The translations under genes were made by a program, and so were the position numbers. A DNA stretch of 19,757 nucleotides from assembly GCA_013360215.1 (NCBI GenBank), contig JABWCP010000038.1:1-19757 (forward strand). Reading direction: 5' to 3'. The notes below the pieces were generated by a model that saw only the letters and a program-made list of their open reading frames with translations, made no database searches and had not been told where the DNA came from. Each line of letters opens with the position of its first letter. Within the stretch, counting starts at the first letter, position 1. Positions 3,482-19,757 of the stretch are shown piece after piece. The stretch comes from a bacterium (lineage in GTDB: Bacteria > CLD3 > SB21).

Positions 3482-6079
3482 TTACATCGACACGAGTTCG
3501 TTTACTTTTGCTAATGCAGCATCCAGTTTGGAAATATCCTTAATACCAGCCGTTGCCGAATGCGGTCTGCCCCCGCCGCTTCCTCCGGCTATTTGTGCAA
3601 TAGCTTTTACCAGATTTCCGGCGTGCAGTTTTTTATCACGGATCAGATCATCACTGACCACACAAAGGATCGTATCTTGGGTGGCGAGGACACCTACACC
3701 GGAAGTCAATTTCTCACGCAGCTGATCACCCACCGCACGCAATTCCGTTCCTGACGGCAATGTTATTTTGCGAGTAATTACTTTAAATCCGTTAACCATA
3801 ACGGCGGATGCAATCAAACCGTCTAATTGGCTAGTCACACTTTGCAGACGAAGATCCGACAGTTCTTTTTCAAGAAGTTTACGATCATTGATCAAAGATT
3901 CGATGCGTTCCGAGATTTCTTCCGGTTTACAATTGAGCGTGTGCCGTAATGATTCTTGCAATGCATATTGATTTCGGAATAATCCCTCCGCGACGGATCC
4001 GGTAATGGCTTCAATCCGGCGCACACCGGAGGCGATGCTGGATTCGGACACGATTTTGAAAAAACCGATTTTCCCCGTCGAGGGCACGTGCGTGCCGCCG
4101 CAAAATTCTTTGCTGTATTCGCCAAACTGCACCACATTGACAAATTCACCGTACTTGTCTCCGAAAAACGATAACGCGCCCATTTTTTTCGCATCGGCGA
4201 TCGGTATATTGCGATGGTGCTGCAAAGCAATGTTTTCAAATACTTTTTCCTGCACCATGGTTTCGATTTTCTTCAACTGGTCATCCGTGATTTTTTCAAA
4301 ATGCGAAAAATCAAATCGTAAACGATAAGGCTCAACTACGGAACCGGACTGATGAACGTGTTCACCGAGAACTGAACGCAGTGCCGAATGCAATAAATGC
4401 GTGGCCGAATGATTTTTGATGGTCGGCTCGCGATGATCTTTGGAAACGGAAAGCTGTGCGGATGCGGCTGACGATAATGAAAAATTCTCAAAATCATCCG
4501 CAAAATGCACGACGTCATCCCCCACACGCTGCGTATCCCAAATTTCAAATACATGGTTTCCGATCGTCACCGTACCTTTGTCACCGACCTGACCGCCGGA
4601 CTCCGCGTAGAAAGGCGTTTGATCAAATACCATTTGTATCAATTTACCATCACGGAAATATTTCAACGGTTTGGCCTGACTTTCCAAAACATCATACCCG
4701 ATAAATTTGGTTTTAACCTCGGATCCGAACGTTTCCCATTTTATCTCTTTATTGATAAATATTTTTTTTCCTTCGTCACGCGAACGTTGTTTTTGCGCCT
4801 TCATTTCTTCCGTAAACTTTTCTTCATCCACAGAAAGGCCGCGCTCGGTCGCCATCACACGCGTCATATCCGCCGGAAATCCGAACGTATCATAAAGTTT
4901 GAATACATCCGCACCCGGTATTTGTTTTATGCCTTTAGATTCCAATTTGCGTGCCATGTCTTCAAAAACTTCGATACCGCGATCAAGTGTTTTATTAAAA
5001 TTTTCTTCCTCGGTTTTGATTACGCGCTCGACAAACTCCTGTCGTGCACGGATTTCAGGAAAAGCATCACCCATCGCACCAACGACATTGGCAACAAGCT
5101 TGTAAATAAACGGTTCATGCAATTCGAGTTTACGACCATATAATGCAGCCCTCCGCAGAATGCGCCGCAAAACATAACCTCGGCCGTCGTTGCCCGGAAT
5201 AGCACCATCCGTTATAGAAAACGTCAACATGCGGATGTGGTCGGCAATGACACGAAACGGCGCCTGAATCGCGGATTCGGCGTAATTTTTTCCCGCTACT
5301 TTTTCAATTCCTGAAATAATATCAGTAAACAAATCAATATCGTAGTTCGAAGTTTTACCCTGTAAAACCCGTGCAACGCGTTCAAAACCGGCACCGGTAT
5401 CAACGTGTTTAGCCGGTAGTTCAGTCAGGCTGCGATCGGCATTTCGATTAAACTGTATGAACACCAGATTCCAGAGTTCGATCACTTCGGGTGACCCGGC
5501 ATTGACCAATTTGCCGCCATTCCCGTCCGGTGTAAGATCAATATGTATTTCTGAACACGGCCCGCACGGTCCCGTATCGCCCATTTCCCAAAAATTATCT
5601 TTTTCTCCAAATCGCAAAATATGATCCGGATTGATATCCGTAACTTTTTTCCAAGTTTCGACCGCTTCATCGTCCGTCTTGTACACGGTTGCATAAAGGC
5701 GATCTTTAGGCAACCCCCACTGCTTCGTAAAAAGTTCCCATGCCCACTGTATCGCTTCGGTCTTATAATAATCCCCAAATGACCAGTTACCCAACATTTC
5801 AAAAAATGTATGGTGGTATGTATCGTGCCCTACTTCTTCGAGATCGTTGTGTTTGCCGCTGACGCGGATACATTTTTGCGAATTGGCCGCTCGTGTATAG
5901 TCTCGTTTTTCGGTACCCAAAAAAATGGGCTTAAACTGGTTCATCCCTGCATTAGTAAAAAGTAACGTCGGATCGTCATTAGGAACAACCGGACTGGATG
6001 GTACAAAACGATGCCCGCGCTCTTCAAAAAAACGGATAAATTGACTACGAATTTCTTTCGCCGTAAGAACATGTGCCAT
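3482..6079 (-). CDS. alaS: Alanyl-tRNA synthetase
   Basis: AlaS charges tRNA-Ala in the cytoplasm and hydrolyses mischarged Ser- and Gly-tRNA. At 865 residues it has the usual full length. The N-terminal class II catalytic core runs to about residue 240 and shows the RFVPSSPVVP, FTNAGMNQFKP and GCSEIHID-type motifs; the editing domain carries the zinc/active-site set H557, H561 (HSATH), C660 and H664 (CGGTH). The C-terminal C-Ala domain ends with a GGSGGGRP glycine-rich motif (832-839). A short coiled coil (about 705-750) separates editing and C-Ala domains. It is the first gene after a predicted promoter (6121-6148), with glmM 18 bases downstream. A GGAG lies rather far (14 bases) upstream of the ATG. 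Confidence 0.98.
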   Translation of the reverse strand: MAHVLTAKEIRSQFIRFFEERGHRFVPSSPVVPNDDPTLLFTNAGMNQFKPIFLGTEKRDYTRAANSQKCIRVSGKHNDLEEVGHDTYHHTFFEMLGNWSFGDYYKTEAIQWAWELFTKQWGLPKDRLYATVYKTDDEAVETWKKVTDINPDHILRFGEKDNFWEMGDTGPCGPCSEIHIDLTPDGNGGKLVNAGSPEVIELWNLVFIQFNRNADRSLTELPAKHVDTGAGFERVARVLQGKTSNYDIDLFTDIISGIEKVAGKNYAESAIQAPFRVIADHIRMLTFSITDGAIPGNDGRGYVLRRILRRAALYGRKLELHEPFIYKLVANVVGAMGDAFPEIRARQEFVERVIKTEEENFNKTLDRGIEVFEDMARKLESKGIKQIPGADVFKLYDTFGFPADMTRVMATERGLSVDEEKFTEEMKAQKQRSRDEGKKIFINKEIKWETFGSEVKTKFIGYDVLESQAKPLKYFRDGKLIQMVFDQTPFYAESGGQVGDKGTVTIGNHVFEIWDTQRVGDDVVHFADDFENFSLSSAASAQLSVSKDHREPTIKNHSATHLLHSALRSVLGEHVHQSGSVVEPYRLRFDFSHFEKITDDQLKKIETMVQEKVFENIALQHHRNIPIADAKKMGALSFFGDKYGEFVNVVQFGEYSKEFCGGTHVPSTGKIGFFKIVSESSIASGVRRIEAITGSVAEGLFRNQYALQESLRHTLNCKPEEISERIESLINDRKLLEKELSDLRLQSVTSQLDGLIASAVMVNGFKVITRKITLPSGTELRAVGDQLREKLTSGVGVLATQDTILCVVSDDLIRDKKLHAGNLVKAIAQIAGGSGGGRPHSATAGIKDISKLDAALAKVNELVSM

Positions 6080-15021: not shown

Positions 15022-17598
15022 TCATACCGATAATGTTCGTTTGGTTTCTACGCGTTCGTAGCACTCGACGACATCACCGGATTTGATATCATTGTATCCG
15101 TCAATGGTAAGACCGCACTCAAATCCCTGCGCAACTTCGCGGGCATCGTCTTTGAAACGCTTGAGTGATGAAAGTTTACCCTCATATACAACTTCGCCGT
15201 TGCGCAGAAGACGTATGGGCTGTGTACGATTGACTTTTCCGTCCACCACATAACAACCGGCAACCGTACCCACCTTGGATATTTTGAAAATTTCACGTAT
15301 TTCGACCATACCTGTGATTTTAATTTCATAATCCGGTTCAAGCATACCTTCGAGCGCTTTGCGGATATCTTCGATACAGTCGTAAATAATGTTGTAATAG
15401 CGTATATCTATGTTTTCACGCTCGGCCAGTTTACGCGCATTGAGATTGGGGCGAACGTGGAAGCCGATGATGATCGCTCCGGAGGCCGATGCGAGTAACA
15501 CATCTGATTCGGTAATTACGCCGACGCCGCGGTGAATGATATTGACCTTCACTTCGGGTGTACTGAGGCGTTGAATCGAATCACTGAGTGCTTCGACGGA
15601 ACCATCCACGTCGCCTTTGAGTACGATCGCCAAATCCGATACTTTGCCGTCGCGCACTTGTTTAGAGATTTCATCCAGGGTAAGGAATTTGACGCGGCGA
15701 TGGTCCTGCTCGCGCTTGAGCTGATGCCGTTTTGTGGCGATGTTACGGGCAATACGTTCGTTGGAGGTAACAACCAATTTATCCCCGGCTTGGGGCAAAC
15801 CGTCAAAACCGATCAACTGCACCGGTGTTGAAGGACCGGCGGCTTTTACCGAATTACCGCGTTCATCAAACATAGCTTTCACACGACCGTAATAAATACC
15901 GCAAATAAACGGATCGCCGATGTGTAGAGTACCTGACTCGACCAGCGCTGTGGCCGTCGCTCCGCGTCCTTTGTCCAATTGTGACTCCACAATGGTACCT
16001 TTCGCGCGGCATTCTACTTTCGCTTTGAGTTCCAAAACATCCGCTTCGAGGAGAATCTTCTCCAACAATGTATCTACGTGTAAGCCTTTTTTAGCGGAGA
16101 TTTCCACGCATTGGTATTTACCGCCCCAATCTTCGACAAGAATATTTTTTTCAGAAAGTTGCGTTTTAATACGCATGGAATTGGCTTCAGGCTTATCAAT
16201 CTTGTTAATCGCAATAATGATAGGTACGCCCGCGGCTTGCGCGTGATTAAGCGCTTCCACCGTTTGAGGCATGACATTATCGTCGGCCGCGACGACGATC
16301 ACGACGATATCCGTAACCTGTGCACCGCGCGCACGCATTGCGGTAAAAGCTTCGTGACCCGGTGTATCCAAAAATGTGATTTTTCGACCTGAAGACAGCG
16401 TAACTTCGTAAGCACCGATATGTTGGGTGATCCCACCTGCTTCGCCGGCTACGACGTTCGCCTTACGTATATAGTCAAGAAGTGATGTTTTACCGTGATC
16501 AACGTGACCCATGATCGTCACGATCGGCGCACGGGTTGATTCCGGTACATCTTCCTGCTCTTCCAACTCTTCAATTTCATTTTCCTCGAACTCTTTGACT
16601 TGCTCGACATCGTATCCGAATTCACCCGCTACGAGCGTAATGGTATCCATATCCAGGCGTTGATTGATAGAAACCATCAATCCAAGCTGGAGACAGGTTT
16701 TAATAATTTCGCCTACAGCCACATCCATCATATCGGCTAATTCGTGCGCCGAAAGGTATTCATGCACACGAATCACATTACGTTCTTCTTCGGACTCTGC
16801 CGCTTCGGCTTCTCTTTCTTCGCGTTTTTGCTTACGCCGTTTTTGACGCTCTTCGCCGGCCGTGCGCGAATCATCCATCTTAGCCATCGTTTCACGGATA
16901 GCCGCTTCGACGTCTTTTTCGTCTATCTTATTTTTCTTCTTCTTTTTCTTTTTATTATTCTTACCGCCTTTTTCTTCGACCACTAAAACTTCAGGCTCCG
17001 CTTCACCTTCTTCTTTGCCACCCTTCTTCTTTTTACGACGCGGGTCAGTTTCGTCTTTCATCGCTTGTTTTTCAAGCTGTTGGCGCGCTTTTTCAAACGC
17101 AAGCTTAAATTCCTCGATGGATTTTTGCGAGGATTTCAGGTTTTCTAGCAGATCAACTTTTTTCTTTTCTGAAGGATGCGTATCCGCGTTTGTATTTTTT
17201 GCTTCAACCGAGATCGTTTCATCGGCAGGCACAGCATGCGGCTCAGCCGACACCGGTTCAGTCTGATGCACTGTTGCGGGTTCTGAAACCTCCTTAACCG
17301 TCTTTTCATCTTTTACGGATTCCGGTTCTAATTCCGGTTCCGGTTTAGGCTCGGATGACAGCTCAAAAATAGACGTTTGTTTTTCGTCTTTTTTCTCTTT
17401 TTTGTCTTTTATTCTCTGATAGGTATCGGCGTGTTTTTTCTCTTTGGAAAACTTAGCCATTACCTTCTCGATCATTTCCTCATCGAGCCCGCTCATGTGA
17501 TTTTTTACTTCTTTGAAGCCGCTCTTTTGAAGAAATGTTACGATTTCCTGATGGCTTACCAAAAGCTCTTTGGCAAGCTGAAATACTTTTTTGGACAT
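15022..17598 (-). CDS. infB: Translation initiation factor IF-2
   Basis: IF-2 is the GTPase that brings fMet-tRNA to the 30S subunit and promotes subunit joining. At 858 residues the protein is full length. Residues 1-50 contain the small IF2_N fold, and 60-275 form a long low-complexity charged linker, including a run of seven lysines at 216-222. A second IF2_N-like fold follows (about 276-335). The G domain has GHVDHGKT (364-371), GGIT (388-391), DTPGH (411-415), NKID (465-468) and SAK (501-503), followed by the beta-barrel and C-terminal tRNA-binding domains. It lies 29 bases after nusA in the conserved order. Family identity is certain; only the linker is species-specific. Confidence 0.98.
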
Positions 17599-17627: not shown

Positions 17628-19010
17628 TTATTCATTGGAAGACGTTTCCGTCGCCGGTTGCAGGTTCTCAATAACTGCGGCCAACCGACTGATGGCACGT
17701 TCGGGAATTCCTTCGACGTTTTTGATCTCTTCGATGGAAGCAATATCACCAAGTTTTACGAAACCTGCTACCAGTAATTTTTCGGCTACTGCTTTGGATA
17801 CGCCTCGAACTTCGACGATCAACGAAGCTTCTGTATAAACTTCCGGCTGCGCCTCGGGTTTAGCCTCCGGGCGAACCGTCGGCTTAACAGTAGTTTCACG
17901 AATTGTTTCAGCTTCTGGAGTTTCGTTTTCGTCAACGATCTCGTCCGCTGCTTCTTCGACGTGCGCTTCGCCGCTTAATTCGCTGTATTTAATTGTTTCG
18001 ATTTGAAAGCCGGTCAGACGTGCGGCTAAGTTTATATTTTGACCGAAGCGACCGACCGCGATGGACATCTCATCGTCATTGATAACAGCCAAGGCTTTTT
18101 TGTCGGTGGTATCCACTTCGACACGCAAGGGTTTGGCCGGACTCAACGCGCGAGAAATAAAAATTTCCGCGTCAGGACTCCAACTGACAATATCAATTTT
18201 TTCGTTATTAAGCTCTTTGACAATCGCCTGAATACGTACGCCTTTCATGCCGACACAAGCACCCACCGCGTCAATACGTTTATCGTTTGAAAATACGGCG
18301 ATTTTCGTACGCTCACCCGGATCACGGGCAATAGCTTTGATTTCGATAATACCATCGTATATTTCAGGTACTTCGTTTTCAAACAAACGTTGAAGAAATT
18401 CGGGTTGTGCACGGGATACCACGATACGCGGGCCGCGCGGATCATCCACGACATCTTTGATAACGGCACGCACCGTATCACCGCGTTTGTAACGTTCATT
18501 GGAAATTTGTTCCATTTTGGGCATGATAAGTTCGGTGCGCTCAAAACTGATATAAATTTCATTTTTGTTGATCTGGCGGATCTCACCGACAACGATTTCG
18601 CCGATACGGTTTTTAAATTCGTCCATGATCAGTTTGCGCTCGATGTCTCGTATTTTCTGATTGAGTGTCTGACGTGCACTGATAATAAGACGACGACCGA
18701 AACTTGCCGGATCAATGATATGTACATAATCGTCACCGACTTTCATATCCGGATCCATTTTTTGAGCATCTTCAATGGAAATCTCGGCCACAGGATTTGT
18801 TACCGGATCGGCAACAACAACGTTTTGGTAAATTTCAATTGCCGGTTTGTCTAAGTTAACGATCACATCAAAGTTGTCCGTTGAGCCGTACTTTTTTTTG
18901 ATCATCATTTTAAAAATTTCCTCGATGACCAAATTGAGTTCATCCTTCTCAATGTTTTTTTCACGGGCAATCTGCGTAAACGCATCGACTATCATGCCAC
19001 CGTGTTCCAT
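17628..19010 (-). CDS. nusA: Transcription elongation/termination factor NusA
   Basis: NusA binds RNA polymerase and nascent RNA, modulating pausing, intrinsic termination and antitermination. The 460-residue protein has the N-terminal RNAP-binding domain (1-125), an S1 domain (about 135-200), and two KH domains (about 230-345) including VGMKGVRIQAIVKEL and AVGRFGQNINLAARLTG. An acidic/Pro-Thr linker (350-393) then leads to a C-terminal helix-hairpin-helix domain (about 395-450) with AEKLLVAGF and IASIEEIKNVEGI. The start at 19010 has GGAGG four bases upstream; a second in-frame ATG five codons on is possible. It follows rimP by 59 bases. NusA may also act on the leader terminator of this operon, as reported for B. 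subtilis, but that is inference here. Confidence 0.98.
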   Translation of the reverse strand: MEHGGMIVDAFTQIAREKNIEKDELNLVIEEIFKMMIKKKYGSTDNFDVIVNLDKPAIEIYQNVVVADPVTNPVAEISIEDAQKMDPDMKVGDDYVHIIDPASFGRRLIISARQTLNQKIRDIERKLIMDEFKNRIGEIVVGEIRQINKNEIYISFERTELIMPKMEQISNERYKRGDTVRAVIKDVVDDPRGPRIVVSRAQPEFLQRLFENEVPEIYDGIIEIKAIARDPGERTKIAVFSNDKRIDAVGACVGMKGVRIQAIVKELNNEKIDIVSWSPDAEIFISRALSPAKPLRVEVDTTDKKALAVINDDEMSIAVGRFGQNINLAARLTGFQIETIKYSELSGEAHVEEAADEIVDENETPEAETIRETTVKPTVRPEAKPEAQPEVYTEASLIVEVRGVSKAVAEKLLVAGFVKLGDIASIEEIKNVEGIPERAISRLAAVIENLQPATETSSNE

Positions 19011-19069: not shown

Positions 19070-19537
19070 CTACCACTTCAGTTTTATCTTAGCCTGTTTA
19101 ATCTGGCTAAGTTCAATGGTGATATCTGAAGTTTGTTTTTTTGCTAACTGGACTCGAAGCGTAACATTATTATCTCCCACGCCAACCACAGTTCCTTCCA
19201 TTGTTTTATCGCCTTGGTCCGATAAATATGTCATTATTATGGTTCTGCCCATGTTTTTGCGAAATTGCCAATCTTGTGAGATCGGACGCTCCAAACCGGG
19301 AGACGAAACTTCGAGAAGATAATTTTCACCTAAAAAATTTTCCGCATCAAGAACTGTCTCAATTTCACGGCTAAATTCACGACAGCGGTCTATTATTATC
19401 CCTTTTTCACTATCGAGAAATACACGCAACATATAACGACCGGATGTGGATTTCAAATCAATATCCACAATTTTAAATTCAGTATTTTCAATAATTTTAC
19501 TGACTATGTTTCGTATACGCGTTTGTAAATTATTCAC
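19070..19537 (-). CDS. rimP: Ribosome maturation factor RimP
   Basis: RimP assists late 30S subunit assembly. The 155-residue product contains the family signatures: YMLRVFLDSEKGI near residue 35, FSREIETVLDAENFLGENY and YLLEVSSPGLERPI near residue 75, then the C-terminal SH3-like barrel ending in IELSQIKQAKIKLKW. I place the start at GTG 19537 rather than a longer in-frame start at 19639. The longer frame crosses the promoter and the terminator hairpin and has no similarity to RimP. The GTG has no good Shine-Dalgarno, so the exact start is open by a few codons. It is the first gene of the nusA-infB operon, as in most bacteria. Confidence 0.93.
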   Translation of the reverse strand: MNNLQTRIRNIVSKIIENTEFKIVDIDLKSTSGRYMLRVFLDSEKGIIIDRCREFSREIETVLDAENFLGENYLLEVSSPGLERPISQDWQFRKNMGRTIIMTYLSDQGDKTMEGTVVGVGDNNVTLRVQLAKKQTSDITIELSQIKQAKIKLKW

Positions 19538-19550
19538 TTTTATAACTTTA

Positions 19551-19583
19551 TGAAAACAAAAAAGTGGGTCTTGCGAACCCACT
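19551..19583 (-). terminator. Intrinsic-terminator hairpin in the rimP leader (probable attenuator)
   Basis: On the minus strand AGTGGGT (19577-19583) pairs with ACCCACT (19563-19569) around a seven-base loop, followed by TTTTTGTTTTC. It lies between the operon promoter (start near 19604) and the rimP start at 19537, so it can end most transcripts about 50 bases long. That is the geometry of an attenuator rather than of an end-of-gene terminator. Confidence 0.75.
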
Positions 19584-19594
19584 CCGTAATAGGT

Positions 19595-19626
19595 AAAGAA
19601 GCTGTCCGTAAATATAAAGCTTCTTT
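19595..19626. repeat. 9-bp palindrome around the rimP promoter start site
   Basis: AAAGAAGCT at 19595-19603 is repeated as its exact complement AGCTTCTTT at 19618-19626, 14 bases apart. The arms flank the -10 box and predicted start, with half-site centres about two helical turns apart. It could be an operator for a dimeric regulator or an RNA hairpin; only the pairing is seen. Confidence 0.4.
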
Positions 19627-19639
19627 TTACGTAATGCAA
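19611..19639 (-). promoter_or_regulatory. Promoter of the rimP-nusA-infB operon
   Basis: On the minus strand TTGCAT (19634-19639) is followed by 17 bases and TATATT (19611-19616). Start is predicted near 19604, which puts the terminator hairpin about 20 bases into the RNA. No other promoter was seen between it and rimP. Confidence 0.65.
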
Positions 19640-19757
19640 GTATTTTTTGATTCAACTTTGGGAAACGGAAGCAACATCGTACCCCCCTTTGGATAGAAGG
19701 GAAAGAAGGATTGAGATTGGTGATAGAACATTGCAGGAAGTCTTGCGAGCGTAGCGA

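Follow-up and report, generated by a model that had tools for sequence, protein, structure and literature searches.

The predicted rimP-nusA-infB leader attenuator of an SB21 bacterium carries a segment complementary to the hup 3' UTR and may be controlled by RNA in trans

The window analyzed here, 19,757 nt in length, makes up contig C38 in full and comes from a 3.72-Mb bacterial genome (G000; GTDB lineage CLD3; SB21). It carries the rimP, nusA and infB genes, preceded by a promoter, a hairpin and a U-tract (Table 1). An earlier note had described a promoter followed at once by a terminator and then by rimP, and inspection of the sequence found its coordinates for these features correct. The hairpin has a folding energy of -12.9 kcal/mol; taken by itself it scores z = -4.2, and none of 200 shuffled sequences folded as well. 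It starts about 20 nt into the inferred transcript. The pattern GTGGGN(3-14)CCCACTTT occurs a single time in the 3.72-Mb genome, and that occurrence is the rimP leader hairpin. At the opposite end of the contig, positions 1-99 of the window hold the beginning of a tuf-like gene that also occurs on contig C19, which makes both ends of C38 repeat breaks.

Table 1 Features of the rimP-nusA-infB locus in the window.
Feature	Position	Strand	Basis
Right end of a multi-copy mobile element, at the contig end (last 99 bases)	19659-19757		Eight copies seen
15-bp target-site duplication AAGTTGAATCAAAAA, 4 bp from the -35	19644-19658		Pair with contig C42
Promoter: TTGCAT (-35, 19639-19634), 17-nt spacer, TATATT (-10, 19616-19611)	19611-19639	-	Sequence; same form and place in relatives
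Transcription start, inferred at ~19605, 5-8 nt past the -10	19603-19606	-	Promoter geometry only
23-nt segment TTCTTTACCTATTACGGAGTGGG, complementary to the hup 3' UTR (G000:C54:2899-2921, +)	19578-19600	-	Sequence comparison, duplex energies
Attenuator hairpin: GGAGTGGGTT (19585-19576), loop CGCAA, GACCCACTTT (19570-19561)	19561-19585	-	Sequence, fold, relatives
Attenuator U-tract TTTTTTGTTTT	19553-19563	-	Sequence; T-rich tail in 65/65 hairpin-bearing leaders
rimP, GTG start at 19537, no Shine-Dalgarno	19070-19537	-	Pfam RimP_N, DUF150_C
nusA	17628-19010	-	Pfam NusA_N, KH_5, weak S1
infB	15022-17598	-	Pfam IF-2, IF2_N, GTP_EFTU

A generic promoter scan did not list the rimP promoter because its -35 element, TTGCAT, matches TTGACA at only three of six positions. 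That this is a real promoter rests on comparison with relatives and on a mobile element found at a fixed distance from the -35 in eight places. One end of this element lies at eight contig ends and its other end at seven. Partner contigs share 14-15 bp at the junction, which represents the target-site duplication; six duplication pairs were recovered by exact match, and seven sites, the window's own included, have a partner. The same end lies upstream of a -35-like TTG in all eight copies, and the distance from the junction to the first base of the TTG is always 19 nt (chance of about 4e-12, allowing for 60 positions); the copy at C25 has a better-spaced -35 5 nt further on. The genes behind the copies include rimP and gapA-pgk, the latter read from translations. 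The element, which left the core promoter whole, supports the rimP promoter call. Its closest known counterparts are the Mutator-superfamily elements that insert upstream of sigma-A promoters (the TnGBS, ISLre2 and ISKra4 group; PMC3942029), from which it differs in its distance of 19 bp rather than 13-17 bp and its 14-15-bp duplications, and in that no transposase was seen. The interior of the element, with its own genes, is absent from the bin and was found in none of the relatives or viral contigs.

The earlier note had proposed aligning this leader in related genomes as a check on its reading of the site as a probable attenuator. The operon was fetched from relatives via NusA, and with the RimP start located by means of an iterated profile, 76 distinct rimP leaders were examined. 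A GTGG[GA]...[TC]CCAC hairpin is present in 65 of them, with 0.003 expected per leader, and every one of these 65 has at least five T residues within the eight bases after the hairpin, the T residues having formed no part of the search. Outside the leaders, the hairpin motif with a T-run occurs 11 times in 907,042 bases. Just upstream of the hairpin, 62 of the 65 relatives have a promoter-like TTGNNN-17-TAnnnT, compared with 32% in shuffled sequence, and most of these promoters read TTGC..-17-TATATT. An alignment of 62 sequences revealed an invariant TGG/CCA core and, at the pair above GGG/CCC, a compensatory change (C-G in 24 sequences, U-A in 22). Among the 29 genomes in which both nusA and a best covariance-model match were located, the match lay upstream of nusA on the same strand, at a distance of no more than 1.3 kb, in 23. 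A second match of the model in the window's genome (C6:60863) was set aside because it is an ordinary terminator located next to the end of a gene. Most leaders, largely from KSB1/Calditrichota-type genomes, place the start of the stem 9-17 nt past the -10, which puts it right at the 5' end of the RNA; in the family of the window, the distance is 26-30 nt. In the sequences 5' of rimP numbered L005-L057, the KSB1/Calditrichota-type hairpin would form from the first nucleotides of the RNA.

These features correspond to the rimP-leader described by Naville and Gautheret in 2010 (PMC2965389), which is called the most ubiquitous attenuator. Both have a G-rich 5' arm, a C-rich 3' arm and a U-stretch between the promoter and rimP, at a short distance from the gene and without a cis antiterminator. 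The general form, a hairpin in the 5' UTR of rimP-nusA-infB, is found in the window; the published GGG(c)...(g)CCC stem motif appears as GGGT...ACCC, with GGG[C/T] in relatives; and the U-tract, ending at 19553, precedes the start codon within the published range of 4-130 nt. The window's genome differs in having U-A rather than c-g next to GGG/CCC, and its family differs in having a conserved additional 5' stretch whose complement lies in the hup 3' UTR. The Rfam model RF01770 (rimP, a gammaproteobacterial double terminator) gave no match at the site and none above the gathering cut-off anywhere in the genome. Conservation across families and phyla and the fit to the published attenuator family (PMC2965389) thus strongly support the earlier reading of the site as a transcription attenuator of rimP-nusA-infB, one of the known rimP-leader kind.

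No cis antiterminator was found in the rimP leader, whose centroid folds show the terminator hairpin alone. An inverted repeat around the -10 (AAGAAGCT/AGCTTCTT) was rejected for this role, as its 5' arm precedes the transcription start and it is absent in relatives. The rimP leader likewise contains no boxA. The rRNA leaders of this genome have TGTTTTTTGAAAA- or CGTTTTTTGACAA-like boxA elements, and NusB-type antitermination was rejected because the rRNA boxA of the lineage differs from the rimP leader.

The 5' extension was examined by comparing leaders within the family and searching for its complement. The 11 nt before the stem show 93% identity among five leaders, compared with 30-41% for the promoter and for the region after the U-tract. 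A search with this leader stretch, allowing at most three mismatches, matched rimP leaders and the opposite strand of the hup 3' UTR, the latter with one mismatch in the window's genome and two in G004, a member of another genus; for the 18-mer, this pattern search covered the whole 3.72-Mb genome. In hup genes fetched from the whole phylum, the complement was found in the 3' UTR of hup, which encodes HU, in all seven family genomes, representing four genera. In each it is located downstream of the hup stop codon and upstream of the hup terminator, oriented such that the two RNAs are complementary. On the leader side, the segment spans the unpaired 5' leader together with the terminator's 5' arm; its pairing partner is a hairpin loop in the hup 3' UTR. 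The class-level relatives G007 and G008 showed no leader-hup complementarity. In every family genome, the main hup gene (G000:C54:2611-2965, L293, in the window's genome; L294-L299 in the others) has a hairpin between its stop codon and its terminator, and this hairpin has the look of a 3'-UTR small RNA.

We assessed the pairing in an ungapped alignment around TTACG/CGTAA, comprising 23 positions and 138 cells. Pairs form in 97.1% of the cells, and the proportion falls to 46-57% when the partner is slid by one to three columns. Changes on both sides occur at 6 of the 23 pairs. In G001, the leader segment GCUUGUUACG faces CGUAACAAGC in hup; the other genomes have CCUAUUACG and CGUAAUAGG at these places. 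The hup sequence facing the terminator arm GAGUGGG is CCCACUU, CCCGCUU, CUCGCUU or UUCGCUU in six of the seven genomes, and each of these variants is fully pairable; the window's own genome has one mismatch there. Among the 22 non-Watson-Crick cells, 19 are G.U, with 7.0 expected under random substitution; allowing for shared ancestry, about 8 of 11 independent changes are G.U by our own count. The complementarity stops where the terminator's 5' arm ends.

The predicted energy of the leader-hup duplex is -40.6 kcal/mol, against a best value of -30.4 among 49,996 control windows of the same genome, the control comprising 400 kb of its 3.72 Mb. In each of the other six genomes, the cognate pair was better than all of its approximately 3,500-4,000 controls. 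The seven cognate pairs have longest unbroken helices of 17-24 bp, and no unbroken helix exceeded 14 bp among 12,000 control windows. The compensatory changes represent perhaps four or five independent events, within seven genomes of one family. From these comparisons, we consider the leader-hup pairing very probably real.

The following mechanism would fit this arrangement. RNA polymerase would start at about position 19605, and the GUGGG...CCCAC hairpin, followed by U residues, would form about 20 nt later, so that part of the transcripts would end as a short RNA of about 50 nt and the rest would be read into rimP. In the family of the window, a second layer would be added by the leader's 5' extension and the terminator's 5' arm, which could pair over about 23 bp with the hup loop. 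The hup 3'-UTR RNA, whether still attached to its mRNA or freed from it as a small RNA, would bind the nascent rimP leader via its loop CGUAAUAGG; pairing extending into GAGUGGG would delay or block the terminator hairpin, with more read-through as a result. The supply of RimP, NusA and IF2 would thereby be tied to hup expression, and NusA may still act on the same terminator.

Antitermination is favored as the consequence of pairing because the duplex covers the 5' arm of the terminator, would form early and has a STAR-like layout. Folding of an RNA that ends before CCCAC pairs GUGGG with the hup RNA at a probability of 0.79-1.00 in all seven genomes. At equilibrium, the full leader folded together with the hup RNA loses the terminator in five of the seven. 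The two exceptions are the window's genome and G005, in which the terminator persists at equilibrium beside the duplex (probability 0.88 and 0.84, respectively), so that antitermination in these two would need kinetics. The very short leader would leave little time for a trans-acting RNA, which counts against antitermination. Granted that the pairing is real, we put antitermination by hup RNA at slightly short of an even chance. The explanation as a whole, an attenuator with an added layer of hup 3'-UTR RNA acting in trans, appears to us evenly balanced. The most specific form, in which the hup 3' UTR or an sRNA cut from it would be a natural transcription-activating RNA that invades the 5' arm of the attenuator, antiterminates and couples HU to the supply of NusA, IF2 and RimP, is a tentative proposal, somewhat more doubtful than plausible.

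Four other readings were weighed. The first is a plain rimP-leader with feedback by NusA as in B. subtilis, where more NusA would mean more termination, the hup complement being irrelevant. The operon encodes NusA, and a leader terminator ahead of a NusA-encoding operon is common to this locus and the B. subtilis ylxS(rimP)-nusA operon as a review describes it (PMC12288461); according to the account of Mondal et al. 2016 in that review, NusA stimulates termination in its own leader. In S. agalactiae, termination is reported to take place 31 nt after the start (PMC4448216). The leader in B. subtilis is about 180 nt long (PMC2965389), compared with an inferred length of about 68 nt here. The core of the rimP-leader hairpin is conserved in sequence, as would be expected of a protein site, and the original description detected no sensing element and did not choose between proteins as the signal (PMC2965389). 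Feedback by NusA on this attenuator, which the earlier note had considered attractive, is plausible by analogy with B. subtilis and S. agalactiae. As the complete account it seems rather unlikely, since it leaves unexplained the 23-bp hup complement and its matching changes in all seven genomes.

The chief rival to antitermination by hup RNA is the reverse direction of action, in which the terminated rimP leader of about 50 nt would be an sRNA that acts on the hup 3' UTR, altering the stability or termination of the hup mRNA, or would itself be sponged. E. coli is known to make regulatory RNAs from 5' UTRs whose transcription ends prematurely (PMC7815308), and the seed CCUAUUACG lies in the unpaired 5' stretch of the short RNA. 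However, the complementarity continues through GUGGG, and in the completed short RNA this part would be hidden inside the terminator stem; the pairing of GUGGG is kept by G.U changes on the hup side. We regard this direction as unlikely.

The third reading, which we consider improbable, is that rimP and hup carry the same DNA element, a protein site or a small inverted repeat, in opposite orientation, the complementarity being a by-product. Two inverted copies of a motif would look complementary, and G001 has changed both; an inverted element kept alike by gene conversion could mimic covariation but not the excess of G.U. RNA-RNA pairing is favored over a shared DNA site because of this tolerance of G.U, the fixed orientation in all seven genomes and the location of both copies in transcribed but untranslated RNA; the end of the match at the end of the 5' arm also argues against a DNA element. 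Finally, 5' hairpins can protect mRNA, but a stabilizer or the 3' terminator of an upstream gene is disfavored as very improbable here, given the U-rich tail directly after every one of the 65 stems, the promoter that sits between any upstream gene and the hairpin, and the lack of a co-directional upstream gene in the window's genome and in the family relatives, the upstream sequence being the mobile element and then a divergent gene in the window's genome and a divergent tRNA-Ala in relatives.

The proposed action of hup RNA on the attenuator has counterparts in two known systems. Engineered small transcription activating RNAs (STARs; PMC5435934) likewise act in trans through complementarity to the 5' half of the stem of a terminator and to the sequence flanking it upstream, but they are designed, whereas the RNA proposed here would be natural and derived from an mRNA 3' UTR, with a putative activity. 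Small RNAs derived from 3' UTRs, such as RaiZ acting on hupA (PMC5391140, PMC9438474), share the trans pairing by an RNA located next to an mRNA terminator and the link between HU and the translation machinery. The difference is that hup would here be the source, and the target would be the nascent leader of an operon for transcription and translation factors.

In this lineage, the rimP-leader has a specific RNA partner in the 3' UTR of the gene for a nucleoid protein, which is new for the rimP-leader, and the accompanying covariation renders the proposal testable. Antitermination by this RNA, if it occurs, would represent a natural equivalent of an engineered class of regulators, and would provide a direct RNA link from chromosome packing to the core transcription and translation machinery.
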